DNA of 64,000 bases from contig JAIZOF010000001.1 in the NCBI GenBank assembly GCA_020525365.1, forward strand, positions 1,077,456 through 1,141,455, given 5' to 3'. The notes under the pieces were generated by a model, which did no database searches, was not told the origin of the DNA, and was given only the letters and a program-made list of their open reading frames with translations. Made by a program: the position numbers and the translations under genes. Position 1 is the stretch's first letter, and each line of letters starts with the position of its first letter. Of this stretch, positions 31,101-41,209 are shown piece after piece. This DNA is from Sulfurovum sp. (GTDB lineage: Bacteria > Campylobacterota > Campylobacteria > Campylobacterales > Sulfurovaceae).

Positions 31101-31580
31101 ATGAAAAAAATCTTTCGAATTACAACAATAATCTATTTGATTTTCTTAACTGCTACACTTGGGGCAGGGCTTTTTGCTGGTATTGTGGTTGCACCAGTGA
31201 CTTTCCACACTGAAGAGTGGCTTAATGGCAAGGTGTTGAGCCATTTTCAAGAGGGACTCATTATGACACAGAACTTCGTTAAACTCTCTTATCTGGTTGA
31301 TGTAATGGTAATTGCTGTAATACTCTATGAGGGGTATAAGTATAAGAAATTTGAACGTGATACCACTACGCAAGTGGCAACCTTTTTTGTTGTTGCTACA
31401 GGGGTAATGTTTGGGCACTACTATCTGCCAGATATTTTGACTATGCAACTTGCAGGAGAGGGGATGACTAAGTCAATAGCCTTTATTGCGACACATAAAG
31501 GGAGTGAGATTAACTTTAAAATCTTCTCAATGGCACTATTGGTGCTTATTGTGCGCAATATGCAAAAAGCGTGTAAGTAG
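31101..31580 (+). CDS. DUF4149 membrane protein
   Basis: This 159-residue protein has four predicted membrane helices (about 7-32, 62-80, 90-108 and 135-153). The first helix with GAGLFAGIVVAPVTF and the HFQEGLIMTQ loop match the DUF4149 family. Function is not known. It has a ribosome site (AGGAGATAT) and follows prmC by 50 nt. The gene after it is only 13 nt away, so the two may be co-transcribed. Confidence 0.85.
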   Translation: MKKIFRITTIIYLIFLTATLGAGLFAGIVVAPVTFHTEEWLNGKVLSHFQEGLIMTQNFVKLSYLVDVMVIAVILYEGYKYKKFERDTTTQVATFFVVATGVMFGHYYLPDILTMQLAGEGMTKSIAFIATHKGSEINFKIFSMALLVLIVRNMQKACK

Positions 31581-31593
31581 AAATAGGAAAAAA

Positions 31594-32082
31594 GTGAGTA
31601 GTAAGCAGTTATATCACCCTTTTGATCCTATTGTCTTTAGTGATACACGGATACTAATTTTGGGCTCATTTCCAAGTATTAAATCATTCAAGAATAATTT
31701 TTACTATGCCCATCCCCGTAACCAATTTTGGAAGATACTCGAAACAGTTACTGGCTACCCCGCCAATAACCGTGATCAAAAGATTTGGCTACTCAAAGAG
31801 TGCAAGTTTGGACTGTGGGATATGATCACCTCTTGTCACCGGAACAACTCGCTTGATACCTCTCTTAAAGATGAAACAGTCAATAATATTCCTGCACTAC
31901 TTGAGCAACACCCTACTATTTCTAAACTTGCTTTCACGGGCAAAAAATCTCAAGCACTTTTTGAAACACACTTTGGTTATTTCGATATTGAAAGGGTTTA
32001 TCTGCCATCTCCCTCTTCAGCTTATGCGGCAATGGAGTTTGAAGACAAGATTGTTGCATATCAACAAGGTTTAAAATCTTAA
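31594..32082 (+). CDS. DNA-deoxyinosine (hypoxanthine-DNA) glycosylase, UDG superfamily
   Basis: This 162-residue uracil-DNA-glycosylase-fold protein has LILGSFPSIKSFKNNFYYAH followed by PRNQFWKIL, the signature of the bacterial family described as DNA-deoxyinosine glycosylase. It starts base excision repair of deaminated adenine. The C-terminal LPSPSSAYAAM is the DNA-intercalation motif. The GTG at 31594 follows TAGGAAAAAA; the frame is open upstream into the DUF4149 gene but without family similarity. Confidence 0.87.
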   Translation: MSSKQLYHPFDPIVFSDTRILILGSFPSIKSFKNNFYYAHPRNQFWKILETVTGYPANNRDQKIWLLKECKFGLWDMITSCHRNNSLDTSLKDETVNNIPALLEQHPTISKLAFTGKKSQALFETHFGYFDIERVYLPSPSSAYAAMEFEDKIVAYQQGLKS

Positions 32083-32198
32083 TATTTTTTGTGTCTATTT
32101 CAAGTTTCTATTTTAAAATCTTGAGCCACCCATAATTTAATTCTTATGTTTTTATTATATCTGGTTAAAATACATCTCATTAAAAATATAGGAAAACA

Positions 32199-34856
32199 AT
32201 GAAAAAATTACTTCTTGCTTTATTGCTGTGTACAAGTAGTTTACCACGGGCATCATCGGTAATTACCCGATAATTATTATATAGATAACATAATAACCTT
32301 ACATATATTTATGCAAAAGAGTATCATAACTTAGTACCAGCAATACGGAACTATCAGCATAAAATTATAGATACCTATACAAAAGAGTTTGGTTTAAGGC
32401 TTGATGAGAAGCTTTATATAAAATTGGCATCATATAACAATCAGATAAGCGGTGGGTCTGCTACCCCAGTACCTTTCAATTCGCAACTTTTATATGGAAC
32501 AGGTGCTGATAAGTTGGACTATTTTGGTTCAGCATCATGGTTTAAGGTGCTACAAATACACGAGAGTGCACACAGTTTTCAGCTTAATGCAAAAGAGAAT
32601 ACTTTGTCCAAATGGGGTTATAAAATATTTGGAAATTTACCCACAATCGACCTAGGAACTCTGCTTATTATTTATCCTTTTCCTAATCTTTTTGTGGGAA
32701 GTTTTTTACTTGAGGGAAATGCTGTACTGAATGAATCACGTTTTGGATTAGGAGGCAGACTCTATTCTGGTGCAGTAGTAGCACAAAATATTCTGCTAGC
32801 CAAGGCAGGTAAAATGACACCTGAACTGATGTTTAATCATACTATACAATATCCCTATAAAGAAAACTGGTATTTTGAGGGGGGGATGTTTCAGACTTTT
32901 TTGGTTAAAAAGTATGGGATAGAGAAGGTCAATGGTTTTTTCAAGGAGTACTCTAAGCAGTATTTTCCTTTTGGGATCAATAATACTTTTGAAACCTATT
33001 ACGGGAAAGATTTTGAGACTCTTTTGGCTGAGTTTAGTAGGGAGCTTAAAACCAAACATAAAGGCTTTAAACAGACTAAAGGAAAAATACTTGCTACCAC
33101 CCAAATGCTTACTTCTCTTACAAAGCAAAATGGCAAGATTACAACATTGATTACAGATGTAAAATCTGCACCTAGACTATTGGAGATAAACAAAAAAGGC
33201 AATATCAGCAAAAATGAAAAAACCTCTTTTCTGCTAGGTCGGGTATTTCAAAAAGAGGGCAAATACTATACACAAAGTACTTACCTTTCATCGCCTACGC
33301 GTATGGTAAAAGGGCTATATGATGCAAGTGCAAGACTGTTGAAAGAGACAGACTCTAAAGTAATACAAGGTTTCAAGCCCAATGGTGAAATGGTCTATAT
33401 GGATGTCAATCGCTCTTTGGAGAAAATGCATATTTATGTAGGAAAAAATTTTTATGATACCTCCTCCTCTCGCGTACTTGTAGATGACAAAGGTGACTTA
33501 TACTACTTTAAGCAACAAGGTAAAATACGTACATTGTATAAGAATAGACAAGCACTCTTCTCTTACGAGGGGTACTATGGCTATGTGACAGATGTAGATA
33601 CTCATGGCAAAGTATACATCATCGCCCCAAGTAAGCATGGTACATCAGCCTATACTGTCAATCATCATGGACAATTAAAACGTATCACCCAGGGGGATGA
33701 TGTGGTAGACTTAAAAGTATTGGACAACGACAAGTTGCTAGTAGCCACCATGAGTGCTAATGGTTTTAATTATATTCTACAAAATAGAGAAGAGAGTGCA
33801 GCACAGATACCAGCATTTAAATATGCTTTTGAAAATACAGAGGATCAAACAGCGTTTGATCCTAGTGATCTTGTTTCTGAAAAAAATAGTAAAAACTTAG
33901 AATCTTACCATGCATTAACATCACTCAAATATAGCTCACTGTCTCAAACAGTAAGCTACAGTAGCGCCAATGGCATATTGGCTACTGCCAATATGCTTTT
34001 CATAGATCCACTTATGCGAAATAGTATCCATCTTGTTGCTTCTAAGCAACCAGACTACTCATTGGCAGGTTTGGGTTATGACAATAGCGCTTACCAGTTT
34101 CATTTTGGTGCTCATTTTATCTCTGTACTAGATAGTAATAGAAAGAAAGCCCATAATGATTATGGCTATAGTGCCTATGTAAAATATCCATTTTTACGCT
34201 CAGGATACTGGCATGCTGGTTTAGGATTGAAATATATACAATCTTTTGATAATGTATACCAAAAACCCCTTACGGTCACACTAAATATGGGCAACACAAA
34301 ACAGTATGGTATCAGCCAATACCCCAATAGCCATCATGAGTTATCACTATTTGCCTCAACAGATAGAGGTGGTATGCTGTATGGAGCTAGCTATGCATTG
34401 ATGCACGACATTGTAAATCAGAGTTATGTTGGTTTTAATACAAAGTATATAAAAAGTGATAGAGGGAACATAAGCATTAAAAAAGGTATCTCCATCAACC
34501 AAAATGGATATAAGCCTTTATCTGCACCCAATAGTATGGAAATTTTTAGTTTAGAAGAGGACTACTATGCCAAAGAGGCGATGATGGCAGAAGTGGGACT
34601 GTATAAAGTATTTGATGGATCAATCTATTTTTTCTCATTTCCACTCTCTGTTCAAAGAGAGTCACTCTATGTAAAGCAACGCTACTACCAAACAAGGTCA
34701 AAAGAGACGAAACACCTTAAATACCATGAAAGCATTATAGGTTTGAGTATGGATTTATTAATATACCACGATATGACCTTTCCTCTAAATATAGAGTGGG
34801 TACATAATACAGATGCGGAAGATCAAGATAGATTCAGAGTAATATTTACGTACTAA
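32199..34856 (+). pseudogene. Outer-membrane metallopeptidase/propeller/beta-barrel protein with two in-frame stops
   Basis: An ATG with TAGGAAAAC opens a signal peptide (MKKLLLALLLCTSSLPRASS). The same frame then has TAA at 32271 and 32286, after which it stays open to 34856. The long open part holds a gluzincin motif HESAH (His at nt 32559) with a downstream EGNAVLNES that could give the third ligand, a middle section of short propeller-like strands, and a C-terminal half of alternating beta-strands ending FRVIFTY, as outer-membrane barrels end. A TTG at 32424 could restart translation but without signal peptide. I call it a pseudogene, or a switched-off allele; only the two stops are damaged. 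Confidence 0.7.
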
Positions 34857-35340
34857 TTTTCACACAAATAAAATAAAAACAGATATTTATAAAAACAATT
34901 CAAATTCTTTAATCACATTAAGATATAATTCAGTACTCGTATATTATAATACGAGCGTGAATGTGATCACAAAAAATATTTTCAAGGAGAAAAAAATATG
35001 TTCAAAACATCTTTTACGGGCTTAGCGGCCTTAGGACTTTTAGTAGTCAGTACAACAGCGTATGGATTGACCAATCGTACTGGTGGTCCTAGTTATAAAA
35101 ATGTAGTTGATAGTACCCATATCTCTGGTGACTATGATATACCAGTACTTGGAGGTTCTGCGGAAACTCATATACGTACATTGATGGATCTAAATGAAAC
35201 AGACAGAGTAGACGAATTACTTACTTCATGTTTAGAAGGAAAGGTAAAAATTGAATTTATGAACCATGAGTATGGTTGTGTAGTGAGTCCAGCAGGTAGA
35301 GTATGGCTAGACAGAAACACAGGTGCTTCTAGAGTTGCTC
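34837..35340 (+). repeat. 504-bp direct repeat, copy 1 (promoter plus 5' half of A1)
   Basis: By direct line-by-line reading, this block is identical to 38347-38850 (offset 3510). It begins inside the last codons of the upstream outer-membrane gene, covers the promoter and inverted repeat, and runs into codon 114 of A1. The second copy carries the orphan tail of that outer-membrane gene, showing that the duplicated segment came from this site. Confidence 0.93.
34924..34955 (+). promoter_or_regulatory. Promoter with 7-bp inverted repeat before FISUMP gene A1
   Basis: Two TATAAT hexamers lie at 34924-34929 and 34945-34950. The second sits within an inverted repeat CTCGTAT / ATACGAG (34936-34942 and 34949-34955). 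A protein bound at this palindrome would cover the -10 box, so it may be an operator; a hairpin in the leader is the other option. A GTGATCAC palindrome follows. The whole region is repeated exactly before gene A3. Confidence 0.5.
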
Positions 35341-36080
35341 AAACAAAGAGAGACTCAAGAGCGTGGGGTGGTTTTTTCCAATGGGGAAGAATGCCAGACG
35401 GACATGAGTATGGTGGATCACTCTATCAAAAAAATAGATCAAGAAATACACCAACATCACCATATCCTGGAGCTTGGTTTGGGGTTCCACAACACATGCT
35501 GTATGATTTTGACTTAAACGATTGGTCAGATGATGATTTTGATGGTACAAAAAGACAAGCTTACTGGTCAACCATAGACGGTACAGCTGTATGTCCTGCA
35601 GGATTTAGAGTACCAAATATAAAAGAGTGGCTTGCAGAAGGAAAGTTCTGGGGTGCAGATAGCGATCCTTGGGACGATCATGGGATGGCAAGAGCATTTG
35701 GAGGTCCATTAAAACTTCCATTACCAGGATTCTTGTTGCCTTCTAAAGAGCATGTAAAGTATCATATGGCTCAGGACGATACCTATAGAACAGAGTTTGC
35801 TACAACAAACCATGATGCTATCTATTGGGCTACTGAACCTGGTCACAGAACCGATTTAGATGATACTGCAGCGGCATATTATTTCTATTGGAATGAAAAT
35901 GCTCCACACGGTGAGCATGCATCACTTCATTATGATACAGAGTTCAATAGGGTAAAAGGTGGATCTGTACGTTGTATTATGGATGAGATGGTTACTCCAG
36001 ATATATCAAATATAGATCTATCTGCACTAGATGCAAGTGTATCTGAAGAAGATGCAAATGATGCAAATGCATCAAACTAA
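34998..36080 (+). CDS. Secreted FISUMP-domain protein A1
   Basis: This 360-residue protein has a signal peptide (cleavage after TTAYG, about residue 23), a short variable segment and a FISUMP (Fib_succ_major) domain, a C-type-lectin-like fold. Signatures are GCVVSPAGRVWLDRNTGAS (near residue 94), the FFQWGR..DGHEYG stretch, CPAGFRVPNIKEW (near 200) and GGSVRCIMDE (near 326); cysteine pairs probably form disulfides. The tail is acidic (SEEDANDANASN). AAGGAG precedes the ATG. The 5' part is identical to A3 and the 3' part to A2, with five or so private differences between. Likely a surface or secreted adhesin; ligand unknown. Confidence 0.85.
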   Translation: MFKTSFTGLAALGLLVVSTTAYGLTNRTGGPSYKNVVDSTHISGDYDIPVLGGSAETHIRTLMDLNETDRVDELLTSCLEGKVKIEFMNHEYGCVVSPAGRVWLDRNTGASRVAQTKRDSRAWGGFFQWGRMPDGHEYGGSLYQKNRSRNTPTSPYPGAWFGVPQHMLYDFDLNDWSDDDFDGTKRQAYWSTIDGTAVCPAGFRVPNIKEWLAEGKFWGADSDPWDDHGMARAFGGPLKLPLPGFLLPSKEHVKYHMAQDDTYRTEFATTNHDAIYWATEPGHRTDLDDTAAAYYFYWNENAPHGEHASLHYDTEFNRVKGGSVRCIMDEMVTPDISNIDLSALDASVSEEDANDANASN

Positions 36081-36152
36081 ACTGTATATAGTTTAAGTCA
36101 ATAAATTAATACCTTTAAGGAGAGAATAAATATGTTTAAAACATCTTTAATA
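35394..36152 (+). repeat. 759-bp direct repeat, copy 1 (3' part of A1 plus start of B)
   Basis: This block is identical to 36623-37381 (offset 1229) by direct comparison. It covers the last two thirds of the A reading frame, the A-B intergenic region and the first 21 bases of a B gene. Identity stops abruptly inside the B signal peptide, marking the deletion in this copy. Confidence 0.93.
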
Positions 36153-36194
36153 TATTTCCTTTTTAAGCCCTCTGCTACTATCTCACAAGCGTGA
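36132..36194 (+). pseudogene. Remnant of a first B-type FISUMP gene
   Basis: After A1 the sequence repeats the A-B spacer, the ribosome site and the first seven codons of the B genes (MFKTSLI), then changes to unrelated codons and stops at 36192. Downstream (about 36187-36226) it resumes as the leader of an A gene. So the rest of this B gene and the promoter of the next A were deleted in one event. Confidence 0.8.
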
Positions 36195-36226
36195 ATGTAA
36201 TCGCAAAAATATTTATATGTTAAAAT

Positions 36227-37309
36227 ATGTTCAAAACATCTTTTACGGGCTTAGTGGTCTTAGGACTTTTAGTAGTCAGTACAACAGCATACGGAGTTAC
36301 CAATAGTACTGGTGGTTCTAGTTATAAACATGCAGTTGATAGTCGCCATATCTCTGGTGACTATGATATACCAGTACTTGGAGGTTCTGCGGACACCCAT
36401 ATACGTACATTGATGGATCTAAACGAAACAGATAGATTAGACCAATTATTTACTGCATGTTTAAAAGGAGAGATAAAAATTGAATTTATGAGCCATGAGT
36501 ATGGTTGTGTAGTGAGTCCAGCAGGTAGAGTATGGCTAGACAGAAACACAGGTGCTTCTAGAGTTGCTCAAGAACTGAGAGACTCAAGAGCGTGGGGTGG
36601 TTTTTTCCAATGGGGAAGAGTACCAGACGGACATGAGTATGGTGGATCACTCTATCAAAAAAATAGATCAAGAAATACACCAACATCACCATATCCTGGA
36701 GCTTGGTTTGGGGTTCCACAACACATGCTGTATGATTTTGACTTAAACGATTGGTCAGATGATGATTTTGATGGTACAAAAAGACAAGCTTACTGGTCAA
36801 CCATAGACGGTACAGCTGTATGTCCTGCAGGATTTAGAGTACCAAATATAAAAGAGTGGCTTGCAGAAGGAAAGTTCTGGGGTGCAGATAGCGATCCTTG
36901 GGACGATCATGGGATGGCAAGAGCATTTGGAGGTCCATTAAAACTTCCATTACCAGGATTCTTGTTGCCTTCTAAAGAGCATGTAAAGTATCATATGGCT
37001 CAGGACGATACCTATAGAACAGAGTTTGCTACAACAAACCATGATGCTATCTATTGGGCTACTGAACCTGGTCACAGAACCGATTTAGATGATACTGCAG
37101 CGGCATATTATTTCTATTGGAATGAAAATGCTCCACACGGTGAGCATGCATCACTTCATTATGATACAGAGTTCAATAGGGTAAAAGGTGGATCTGTACG
37201 TTGTATTATGGATGAGATGGTTACTCCAGATATATCAAATATAGATCTATCTGCACTAGATGCAAGTGTATCTGAAGAAGATGCAAATGATGCAAATGCA
37301 TCAAACTAA
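36227..37309 (+). CDS. Secreted FISUMP-domain protein A2, lacking normal promoter and ribosome site
   Basis: This 360-residue homologue of A1 has the same layout: signal peptide, FISUMP domain with VWLDRNTGAS, CPAGFRVP and SVRCIMDE, and acidic tail. From nt 36623 it is identical to A1; its first 130 codons are the most divergent of the three A genes (for example SSYKHAVDSRHISGD). The leader resembles that of A1 but lacks the TATAAT/inverted-repeat segment and the AAGGAG site: the ATG is preceded by TATATGTTAAAAT. It may be silent, weakly expressed, or serve as a donor for recombination. Confidence 0.8.
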   Translation: MFKTSFTGLVVLGLLVVSTTAYGVTNSTGGSSYKHAVDSRHISGDYDIPVLGGSADTHIRTLMDLNETDRLDQLFTACLKGEIKIEFMSHEYGCVVSPAGRVWLDRNTGASRVAQELRDSRAWGGFFQWGRVPDGHEYGGSLYQKNRSRNTPTSPYPGAWFGVPQHMLYDFDLNDWSDDDFDGTKRQAYWSTIDGTAVCPAGFRVPNIKEWLAEGKFWGADSDPWDDHGMARAFGGPLKLPLPGFLLPSKEHVKYHMAQDDTYRTEFATTNHDAIYWATEPGHRTDLDDTAAAYYFYWNENAPHGEHASLHYDTEFNRVKGGSVRCIMDEMVTPDISNIDLSALDASVSEEDANDANASN

Positions 37310-37381
37310 ACTGTATATAGTTTAAGTCAATAAATTAATACCTTTAAGGAGAGAATAAATATGTTTAAAACATCTTTAATA
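36623..37381 (+). repeat. 759-bp direct repeat, copy 2 (3' part of A2 plus start of B1)
   Basis: This is the second copy of the block at 35394-36152; see that entry. Here the B reading frame continues beyond the repeat end, so this copy keeps more of the ancestral A-B arrangement. Confidence 0.93.
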
Positions 37382-38297
37382 GGTCTAGTGGCCTTTGGAA
37401 TTTTAACAAGCAGTACGGCGTTATATGCAGTAGGATCACTTGCACCTTACGATAAAAATCGTTACGCATTTGGGGAGAAAAAGAATGACGGGAAAACATT
37501 TCCGAAAATAGACTGTAATGGTTGGTATACTTGGTATCAAGGGTTTAAGTATGGCTGTATCGTATCTAATACAGGTAGAGTATGGCTAGACAGAAACATA
37601 GGTGCTTCAAGTGTATCTAAAAATGGAGAAGACCCTGCATCATTTGGTGGTTGGTTCCAGTGGGGTAGACCATTTACTGGGCATGCACTTAGGGTAACAA
37701 GATACCACCAAGATATTGGTGGTGACCGTTTTGCTCTTCAAAATCCATTTTTAGATGATAACGATTTTTATTGTATTAACCCTAACTCAGACTATCTGAT
37801 TACATCAGAAGTTCGAGATGCAGATGGAGTATCGAGATCAGCATATTGGTCAAGAGCAGATGGTTATGGTAGTTATGATGCAAATAGAAGTTCCACTCCA
37901 CCAGATAGCTCCGCTCCACCAGCTATATGTCCTCAAGGATTTAGAGTACCGACATTAAGAGAGATGGAAGCAGAAGTTGCTTCTTGGAATTCACTTGATG
38001 CACGTGGAGCATTTGAGTCTTTAAAACTTCCATTGGGAGGAAATGAGATGGAGCCACAATGGTCATTACATCACTAGTCTGATTATCTATCTTAACAGTG
38101 ATTACAACCCATATTGGGAGATGATACTCGATTTGGCTGCAAATTGGTGGTTACTGGACCGTTGCTAACCACAGATACTGATCATGGTGCACAATGCACC
38201 AAATCCATTAGTAGATCGTAATATATGGTGGGCTGGAAAATATGGAGCTTCATCTCGCGGGATGGGTTACATGGTTCAAGCTGTATCTGATGTTTGA
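37361..38297 (+). pseudogene. Frameshifted B-type FISUMP gene B1
   Basis: The frame opens with AAGGAGAG and ATG 51 nt after A2 and codes a signal peptide and FISUMP sequence (GCIVSNTGRVWLDRNIGAS, FGGWFQWGR, AICPQGFRVPTLREM) to 38077, where it ends early. Compared with B2 there is an extra A in GGAGGAAATGAG near 38042, more single-base changes over the next 60 bases and a gap near 38192. In another frame the true C-terminus is readable (PNPLVDRNIWWAGKYG, then RGMGYMVQAVSDV) up to TGA 38295. It is therefore the most complete B sequence, but not translatable in full. Confidence 0.85.
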
Positions 38298-38346
38298 TTG
38301 AAGACTATTTAATATTAATTGATTGTGATATTCATCCATTTGCTTT

Positions 38347-38850
38347 GAGTAATATTTACGTACTAATTTTCACACAAATAAAATAAAAACAGATATTTAT
38401 AAAAACAATTCAAATTCTTTAATCACATTAAGATATAATTCAGTACTCGTATATTATAATACGAGCGTGAATGTGATCACAAAAAATATTTTCAAGGAGA
38501 AAAAAATATGTTCAAAACATCTTTTACGGGCTTAGCGGCCTTAGGACTTTTAGTAGTCAGTACAACAGCGTATGGATTGACCAATCGTACTGGTGGTCCT
38601 AGTTATAAAAATGTAGTTGATAGTACCCATATCTCTGGTGACTATGATATACCAGTACTTGGAGGTTCTGCGGAAACTCATATACGTACATTGATGGATC
38701 TAAATGAAACAGACAGAGTAGACGAATTACTTACTTCATGTTTAGAAGGAAAGGTAAAAATTGAATTTATGAACCATGAGTATGGTTGTGTAGTGAGTCC
38801 AGCAGGTAGAGTATGGCTAGACAGAAACACAGGTGCTTCTAGAGTTGCTC
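38347..38850 (+). repeat. 504-bp direct repeat, copy 2 (promoter plus 5' half of A3)
   Basis: This is identical to 34837-35340. Its left 23 bases are the tail of the outer-membrane gene that lies before A1, displaced here by the duplication. Confidence 0.93.
38434..38465 (+). promoter_or_regulatory. Duplicated promoter with inverted repeat before A3
   Basis: This is an exact copy of 34924-34955, with two TATAAT boxes and the CTCGTAT / ATACGAG inverted repeat. It is followed by the same AAGGAG ribosome site. A1 and A3 therefore should share regulation, unlike A2. Confidence 0.5.
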
Positions 38851-39557
38851 AAGAACTGAGAGACTCAAGAGCGTGGGGTGGTTTTTTCCAATGGGGAAGA
38901 GTACCAGACGGACATGAGTATGGTGGATCACTCTATCAAAAAAATAGATCAAGAAATACACCAACATCACCATACCCTGGAGCTTGGTTTGGAGCTCCAC
39001 AACACATGCTGTATGATTTTGATCTAAACGATTGGTCAGATGATGATCCTGATGGTCAAAAAAGGCAAGCTTACTGGTCAACTCTAGACGGTACGGCTGT
39101 ATGTCCTGCAGGATTTAGAGTGCCAACTATAAGAGAGTGGGATGTAGAATCAAAGATATGGGGTGAAGATAGCGAATCTGATTGGCATAATTGGGGAATA
39201 GAGAGAGCATTTAACTCTAACTTTAAGCTTCCATTACCAGGATTCTTGTTGCCTTCCAAAGAGCATGTAAAGTATCATATAGATAAGATATGGAAATACC
39301 GAACAGAATCATATACTGTGAATCATGATGCTTTTTATTGGGCTTCTGATCCTGGCACTAACGAGCTGTACGAAGATACTGCAAAGGCACTATATTTTTA
39401 TTGGAATGAAAACCCTGAACATGGTGAAACAGCAGCAATTAAGAGAACTACAGAGTTTAACCGTGTAAAGGGTGGATCTGTACGCTGTATTATGGATGAG
39501 TCAATTGCTACTCCAGATATAAATGGATCTGCAGAAGATACAAGTACATCAAACTAA
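38508..39557 (+). CDS. Secreted FISUMP-domain protein A3
   Basis: This 349-residue protein has a signal peptide and FISUMP domain and is the third A gene. Codons 1-114 are identical to A1, and the next part (QELRDSRAWGGFFQWGRVP) matches A2. From about residue 160 it is its own variant: DDDPDGQKRQ, PTIREWDVESKIWG, HIDKIWKYRTES and a different acidic tail ending SAEDTSTSN. Core motifs CPAGFRVP and GGSVRCIMDE are kept. It has a full promoter and AAGGAG and should be expressed. It probably pairs with B2 downstream. Confidence 0.85.
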   Translation: MFKTSFTGLAALGLLVVSTTAYGLTNRTGGPSYKNVVDSTHISGDYDIPVLGGSAETHIRTLMDLNETDRVDELLTSCLEGKVKIEFMNHEYGCVVSPAGRVWLDRNTGASRVAQELRDSRAWGGFFQWGRVPDGHEYGGSLYQKNRSRNTPTSPYPGAWFGAPQHMLYDFDLNDWSDDDPDGQKRQAYWSTLDGTAVCPAGFRVPTIREWDVESKIWGEDSESDWHNWGIERAFNSNFKLPLPGFLLPSKEHVKYHIDKIWKYRTESYTVNHDAFYWASDPGTNELYEDTAKALYFYWNENPEHGETAAIKRTTEFNRVKGGSVRCIMDESIATPDINGSAEDTSTSN

Positions 39558-39608
39558 ACTGTATATAGTTTAAGTCAATAAATTAATATCTTTAAGGAGA
39601 AAATAAAT

Positions 39609-40511
39609 ATGTTTAAAACATCTTTAATAGGTCTAGCGGCCTTTGGAATTTTAACAAGCAGTACGGCGTTATATGCAGTAGGATCATCTGCAGCTTACGA
39701 TAAAAATCGTTATGCATTTGGAGATAAGAAGAATGACAAGAAAACATTTCCGAAAATAGACTGTAATAGTTGGTTTACTTGGTATCAAGGGCTTAAGTAT
39801 GGCTGTATCGTATCTAATACAGGTAGAGTATGGCTAGACAGAAACGTAGGTGCTTCAAGTGTATCTAAAAATGGAGAAGACCCTGCATCATATGGTGGTT
39901 GGCTCCAGTGGGGTAGACCATTTACTGGGCATGCACTTAGGGTAACAAGATACCACCAAGATATTGGTGGTGACCGCTATGCCCTTCAAAATCCATTTTT
40001 AGATGATAAAGATTTTTATTGTATTTACCCTAACTCAGACTATCTGATTACATCAGAAGTTCGAGATGAAAGTGGAGCATTGAGATCAGCATATTGGTCA
40101 AGAGCAGATGGTTATGGTAGTTATGATGCAAATAGAAGTTCCACTCCACCAGATAGCTCCGCTCCACCAGCTGTATGTCCTCAAGGATTTAGAGTACCGA
40201 CATTAAGAGAGATGGAAGCAGAAGTTGCTTCTTGGAATTCACTTGATGCACGTGGAGCATTTGAGTCTTTAAAACTTCCATTGGGAGGAATGAGATGGAG
40301 CCACAACGGTAATTACATCACTAGGTCTGATTATCTATCTAACAGTGATTACAACCCATATTGGGGAGATGATACTGGACGGGCTGCAATTGGTGGTTAC
40401 TGGACTGCTACACCACAAGATAATGATCATGGTGCACACGCACTAACTATTTGTTACAGAAAATACAGTTTAACCCTTACTATGATACACTCTGGCTTGC
40501 AGGCGATATAG
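39609..40511 (+). pseudogene. B-type FISUMP gene B2, 3'-truncated by deletion
   Basis: The gene starts with AAGGAGAA and ATG, 51 nt after A3. It codes signal peptide and FISUMP sequence in one open frame through CPQGFRVPTLREM, GYWTATPQ and HGAHALTIC, then meets sequence of the apaH gene at about 40450. The last 20 or so codons (RKYSLTLTMIHSGLQAI) are apaH DNA read in the wrong frame. The expected C-terminal VDRNIWWAGKYG...VQAV end, visible in B1, is missing. The truncated protein would lack the final strand and cysteine of the domain. Confidence 0.82.
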
Positions 40512-41209
40512 TCAATCGGGGCGATAGCTCTTTGGAGACACTGGAGTATCTCTATAACATCCGTGATGCCGTCAAGTTGGTACTGGGCAACCATGATATA
40601 ATGCTTATTGCTGCCTATTATGGTATTAGAAAGTCTAACCCAACCATTGATCCAATATTGTCATCACCCATAGCAAAAGAGCTCATAGAGTGGCTACAGT
40701 CACAAAAAATCCTACATGTAGACTTCTCTTTAGGATACTGTATGGCGCATGCTGGTATCTCTCCAGAATTTGATTTAGGAATGGCAATGGAGTATGCCAA
40801 GCGTATTGAGACAAAACTACAAAGTAGCAGTGCAACAGAATGGTTGATGAAGGTATTCAAGTGTGGTATTGATCGGTTTGATAGGCATGCATCACCTGAA
40901 GACATTGACCGTTACGTTGTTAGTTCATTTACCCGTATGCGCTATTGCTATAAAGATAATCAACTCGATTTTAAACAAAAGGGTGCACCAACTACTGAAG
41001 TGAGGTCTAAGGGAATGAAGCCATGGTTTGAGTGCGATAACCGTAAGGAGATCGAATTGAAGATTATTTTTGGGCATTGGTCAACACTGGGATTCTATCA
41101 TGATGAAAATGTACTTGCACTTGATACAGGATGTCTGTGGGGAGGGAAACTTACCGCTGCTCGCATTGATCTTCTTGAATCAAAAATAATTCAGTTAGAT
41201 TGTAGATAA
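40451..41209 (+). pseudogene. apaH: Symmetrical diadenosine tetraphosphatase, N-terminus deleted
   Basis: The frame reads ApaH from about its 18th residue: LLQKIQFNPYYDTLWLAGDI, VNRGDSSLETL, VLGNHDIMLIA, AHAGISPEFDL and FGHWSTLGF. ApaH is a calcineurin-like phosphoesterase that hydrolyses Ap4A to two ADP. The N-terminal strand and the GDxQGC motif that supplies the first metal ligands are absent, since DNA upstream of 40451 belongs to the truncated B2 gene. A TTG at 40451 could start translation, but there is no ribosome site and the product should be inactive. The rest has no stop or frameshift, so the deletion is probably recent. Confidence 0.82.

Follow-up and report, generated by a model that had tools for sequence, protein, structure and literature searches.

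Recombination among tandem FISUMP-like genes in a block between a UDG-family gene and a truncated apaH in Sulfurovum

Introduction

Seven of eight Fibrobacteria genomes carry 17–119 copies of the FISUMP domain (PMC4704652). By HHsearch this domain is similar to DUF1566, and both are known targets of diversity-generating retroelements (PMC4159848). The Legionella protein Lcl is a surface adhesin that binds sulphated glycosaminoglycans (PMC11162425). The papers found on Fib_succ_major name the domain, and none of them describes the locus analysed here. Antigenic variation by gene conversion is known from Neisseria, where pilS supplies sequence to pilE.

We analysed a 64-kb stretch of a Sulfurovum genome (1.466 Mb in two contigs), located at C1:1077456–1141455 on the first contig and referred to below as the window. 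It had been proposed from the DNA letters that part of the window is a recombining array of surface-protein genes with three promoter copies, in which one gene, A, is kept and its partner, B, is being lost or is switched off. Here we compare the locus with its relatives, describe how its copies differ and weigh the explanations for its present state.

Results

Three tandem A-B cassettes, two with a promoter-like block

The array consists of three tandem copies of a two-gene A-B cassette. Its repeat families of 300 nt are 92–100% identical, which rules out chance. The features of the locus are the following, with the kind of evidence in parentheses where a comparison was used.

31486..32082, + strand: UDG-superfamily DNA glycosylase gene, the left flank (family match and synteny)
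32190..34856, + strand: surface-protein gene of unknown family, left part of the putatively inserted block (signal peptide, relatives' frames)
34837..34997, + strand: A1 upstream region, which takes in the last 20 bp of the preceding gene, a palindrome over a TATAAT-like box and an AAGGAG site
34998..36080, + strand: A1, open, 360 aa, FISUMP-like; 5' part as in A3, 3' part as in A2
36132..36194, + strand: B0 remnant, seven codons of B homology, then unrelated sequence and a stop after ~20 codons (sequence comparison)
36195..36226, + strand: degraded A2 upstream region, without the AAGGAG site (sequence comparison)
36227..37309, + strand: A2, open, 360 aa, without the promoter block and ribosome-binding site of A1 and A3 (open reading frame)
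37361..38300, + strand: B1, with several small indels at ~38042–38215; C-terminal end readable in another frame (comparison with B2)
38347..38507, + strand: second copy of the A1 upstream region, starting with the 20 bp of the preceding gene's 3' end (repeat comparison)
38508..39557, + strand: A3, open, 349 aa; predicted C-type-lectin-like fold at residues ~75–330 (open reading frame, model)
39609..40511, + strand: B2, B homology to ~40440, C-terminal part missing, frame ending inside the apaH region (open reading frame)
40451..41209, + strand: apaH frame without its first ~18–20 codons, GDIQG motif missing (comparison with relatives)

All three A genes are full open frames, as the original prediction had stated, and the distance to the following B start, given there as about 50 nt, is exactly 51 nt in the three units (B starts at 36132, 37361 and 39609). 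No intact B exists among B0, B1 and B2, also in line with that account. The claim of a promoter in three copies held for two of them: A1 and A3 are preceded by 100%-identical copies of a 173-bp block, whereas unit 2 has only a 78%-identical remnant of the block's 3' part, from which the AAGGAG site is gone. No further copy of the A promoter was found in the genome outside the array. A palindrome, CTCGTAT-N6-ATACGAG, lies over the TATAAT-like box at 34936–34955 and 38446–38465 and is missing at A2; it is a possible regulatory site. The 20 bp from the preceding gene's 3' end recur at 38347, before A3, marking where the duplicated unit broke on its left and where the tandem duplication was joined (38346/38347). 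The promoterless A2 was absent from the original prediction, as were the changed UDG-apaH synteny, the truncated apaH and the broken upstream gene described next.

The array lies in a block that separates neighbouring genes

Synteny comparison showed a UDG-family gene immediately 5' of apaH in 25 of 29 Sulfurovum relatives. In the window the two genes are 8.4 kb apart, and the interval is occupied by a surface gene and the array. Because direct adjacency of the two genes is the common state, we infer the direction of the change, and insertion of an 8.4-kb block is the simplest reading. No integrase, transposase or other mobile-element gene and no direct repeat was identified at the edges of the block.

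The gene at the right edge, apaH, was detected in all 40 good-quality genomes of the genus. In the window it begins at LLQKIQF; the N-terminal ..VWAIGDIQGCY of its relatives is missing, and the missing piece was not found elsewhere in the 64-kb window. This region is a conserved motif of the phosphoesterase family of apaH, so the remaining protein is probably inactive. One and the same junction breaks the 3' end of B2 and the 5' end of apaH.

At the left of the block, the preceding surface gene has a signal-peptide-like start (MKKLLLALLLCTSSLPRASS..) followed by in-frame stops at ~32258–32290, before a long frame. It is thus probably broken; its frames are 875–905 aa long in most relatives that have the gene. 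Its product gave no Pfam match. A 35-residue fragment of the gene, at 91% identity, lies on the first contig (C1:54114–54218) near a ricin-B-lectin/PPC protein gene.

A and B resemble the FISUMP family

Both A and B begin with the MFKTS signal-peptide opening and carry the signatures YGC.VS..GRVWLDRN.GAS, QWGR and CP.GFRVP, so the proposed common opening and domain signatures were found. In profile searches A scored 18.4–26.0 bits against PF09603 of Pfam (cut-off 33.9) and 26.1–28.2 bits against TIGR02145 of NCBIfam (cut-off 41.65), below both FISUMP/Fib_succ_major cut-offs; B2 reached 14.6 bits and B1 gave no score. An alignment with recognised relatives and conserved motifs was obtained all the same: 83 of the 94 aligned proteins match PF09603 at E<=0.001, and W103, D105, R106, N107, G109, A110, G130, R131, G135, H136 and P200 are invariant. 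By these motifs A and B are best taken as diverged, sub-threshold FISUMP relatives and not as curated members.

Relatives occur in other Sulfurovum genomes, in thiotrophic symbionts of Bathymodiolus and, as FISUMP-domain proteins, in Candidatus Thioglobus. None of those in 175 family genomes exceeded 46% identity, and a single-protein scan of named genomes returned no orthologous A-B locus. FISUMP genes were tandem or multi-domain in 16 of 80 retrieved loci. The genome itself contains further FISUMP genes, some of which encode PPC-bearing proteins close to the contig end, and it also encodes Lcl_C proteins. A FISUMP gene cluster with several PPC-domain proteins lies at both ends of the first contig (C1:1424406–1458354 and C1:1–810), and the same 262-aa FISUMP-domain frame appears at C1:238–702 and C1:495041–495505; in the parts compared, the two begin and end with the same residues. 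The second contig (C2) is 7.7 kb long and rich in simple repeats, and is possibly not bacterial, perhaps host DNA.

An AlphaFold2 model of A3 had a mean pLDDT of 69.9, and mostly 85–95 in its confident core, which comprises about residues 70–250, with a weak loop near 151–162, and most of 270–330. Plain Foldseek searches of the PDB and of viral models with this structure gave nothing at E<=0.001 (E>1), and a sequence search of solved structures gave no match. When the Foldseek candidates were aligned a second time, most of the top rows were C-type-lectin-like folds (Z 5.0–6.4). The best was the C-terminal domain of Legionella Lcl (8q4e; Z 6.4, rmsd 3.8, 111 residues); other top alignments were to Mtd, FGE/EgtB/PvdO and snaclecs. 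The lectin-like fold expected of a FISUMP protein is thus matched by the predicted A3 structure, and A is predicted to have a C-type-lectin-like fold at Z-scores of 5–6, which are middling. The A proteins may be exported and may serve in lectin-like binding and adhesion.

The B copies are broken

B0 was said to stop after seven codons. B homology does end there, at a deletion or junction, but the frame continues to about 20 codons. B1, described as frameshifted, stays open up to ~38042 and matches B2 at about 95% identity over that part; the next ~170 nt (to ~38215) carry many substitutions along with several small indels, and the C-terminal end is readable again after them. This damage could be local decay or a local consensus error. 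The C-terminal part of B2 is missing, as expected of a gene cut by a deletion, but the cut is better described as the junction that B2 has in common with the 5'-truncated apaH. For the open part of B1/B2 dN/dS is 1.3, a value that rests on few changes. The proposal that B is being lost fits all three copies, although the break in B1 may partly be consensus error and that in B2 is the edge of the block.

The alternative, that B is switched off, found no support. Inverted pairs of at least 40 nt were not found, tandem repeats were confined to two-copy repeats of 9–10 nt, and none of these lay at the B breaks. We rejected slipped-strand or inversion phase variation, given no simple repeat or invertible segment at the breaks or the promoter. 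A reverse transcriptase (RVT_1) was not detected in the genome, while control profiles were, and a diversity-generating retroelement was rejected on this ground. B was also rejected as a sequence donor for A because the stretches that they have in common are short (longest common word 27 nt; best long match 78% over 99 nt).

The A genes are a block mosaic

The alignment of A1, A2 and A3 has 1156 columns and 178 polymorphic sites, none with three states. Along the gene, 34 sites at which A1 equals A3 are followed by 6 at which A2 equals A3 and A1 is private, then by 137 at which A1 equals A2, and by 1 more. In 100,000 shuffles of the polymorphic sites, none of the three run lengths was reached. 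Clean blocks of pairwise identity over all 178 sites mean that recent recombination or gene conversion among the A copies is well supported, and the idea of a recombining cassette locus is borne out. Since the shared tracts contain no differences, the exchanges are young compared with the divergence among the copies. A1 and A2 are 97% identical in DNA, versus at most 84% between the copies of the other tandem FISUMP loci tested. Between the shared tracts, the 6 sites private to A1 look like a leftover of the original A1, the patch that overwriting from both sides would be expected to leave. As the mechanism of the exchange we infer gene conversion.

The main alternative is a local assembly or consensus artefact, in which near-identical repeats were misjoined into a mosaic and B1 was left unpolished. 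In its favour are exact tracts of about 505 and 758 nt at 100% identity. The small, alternating indels of B1 are packed into ~170 nt and adjoin 680 nt that match at about 96% identity without an indel, and the contig itself ends on both sides in other FISUMP genes, so repeats of this kind troubled the assembly. However, a chimera of A2 and A3 could not have supplied the 6 private A1 sites, and the block is flanked by a pair of genes that adjoin each other in relatives, so its position is not that of a random join. Elsewhere in the window the sequence is cleanly coding, 89% of it within frames of at least 150 aa, and the genome is 99.86% complete. We consider an artefact unlikely.

The mosaic also allows an analogy with pilS and pilE, in which the promoterless A2 would be a silent copy from which A1 and A3, the copies with a promoter, receive variable 3' halves, giving antigenic variation. 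The promoter block and ribosome-binding site are present only at A1 and A3, A1 combines an A3-type 5' half with an A2-type variable 3' half, and variation is concentrated in the C-terminal half. Yet the direction of transfer is not readable from one genome, in which no variants were seen; three copies would be a very small repertoire; and an A1 transcript could cover A2. This role for A2 seems improbable to us.

The A reading frames are open and probably maintained

About 160 substitutions distinguish A2 from A3, and none of them creates a stop. A neutral simulation gave a mean of 5.3 stops and zero stops in 0.3% of runs (P about 0.003). Length differences among the A copies are all multiples of three, so the indels are in frame, and the view that A is kept agrees with both observations. 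dN/dS is about 1.0 in the 5' part of A and 0.6 in the 3' part; the value near 1 is compatible with relaxed and with diversifying selection. Differences between A1 and A3 avoid the N-terminal 88 residues and fall mostly at residues 201–330. In the C-terminal half 47 of 130 residues differ, but only 5 of the 39 family-conserved positions do (34 spared).

That the block, A included, is an ordinary relic decaying neutrally in a small genome, with A merely unbroken so far, would suit the dN/dS of about 1.0 in the A 5' part and 1.3 for B1/B2 and the breakage of the preceding gene, B and apaH in one block, but the missing stops, the in-frame indels and the mostly spared family-conserved A positions make it the least probable of the explanations weighed here.

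Discussion

From this one genome of the species, we favour, with a probability of about 60%, an acquired adhesin-like cassette, duplicated in tandem, whose A genes are reshuffled by recombination while its B genes decay. A block made up of the surface gene and the A-B cassette, which would encode secreted FISUMP-like proteins of C-type-lectin fold, would have been acquired between the UDG-family gene and apaH, the 5' end of apaH now missing at its right edge. Tandem duplication of the A-B unit, with one breakpoint within the 3' end of the preceding gene, would have produced the array. Homologous recombination or gene conversion between the A copies would then have given A1 its A3-type 5' half and A2-type 3' half. 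A1 and A3 would have retained a promoter-like region and a ribosome-binding site, both of which are missing from A2. Selection would hold the A reading frame, the C-terminal half of A, probably the ligand face, would diversify, and B would be decaying in all copies.

Within a single genome, the locus documents clearly that tandem lectin-like genes of Sulfurovum have recombined. In addition, surface genes form a block here that splits a conserved gene pair and truncates apaH, a gene detected in each of the good-quality genomes examined from the genus. A possible division of the A copies into expressed and silent ones could be tested directly in isolates.

Among known systems, the FISUMP family has its motifs in common with A and B and the domain can be aligned, but A and B score below the curated cut-offs. 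The Legionella Lcl C-terminal domain (DUF1566/Lcl_C, PF07603) is the best structural match of the A3 model; A differs in being without a collagen-like stalk and is about 17% identical. Mtd and TaqVP, two variable proteins from diversity-generating retroelements, also align with the model, but the A copies differ in part by in-frame indels across the gene, and their mosaic indicates homologous exchange. With the gene-conversion loci pilE/pilS and vls the array has in common promoter-bearing copies, one promoterless copy and exchanged 3' halves, but it consists of three copies read in one genome. If A2 did act as a silent copy, the array would be a minimal Campylobacterota example of such a system, serving a lectin-like surface protein.
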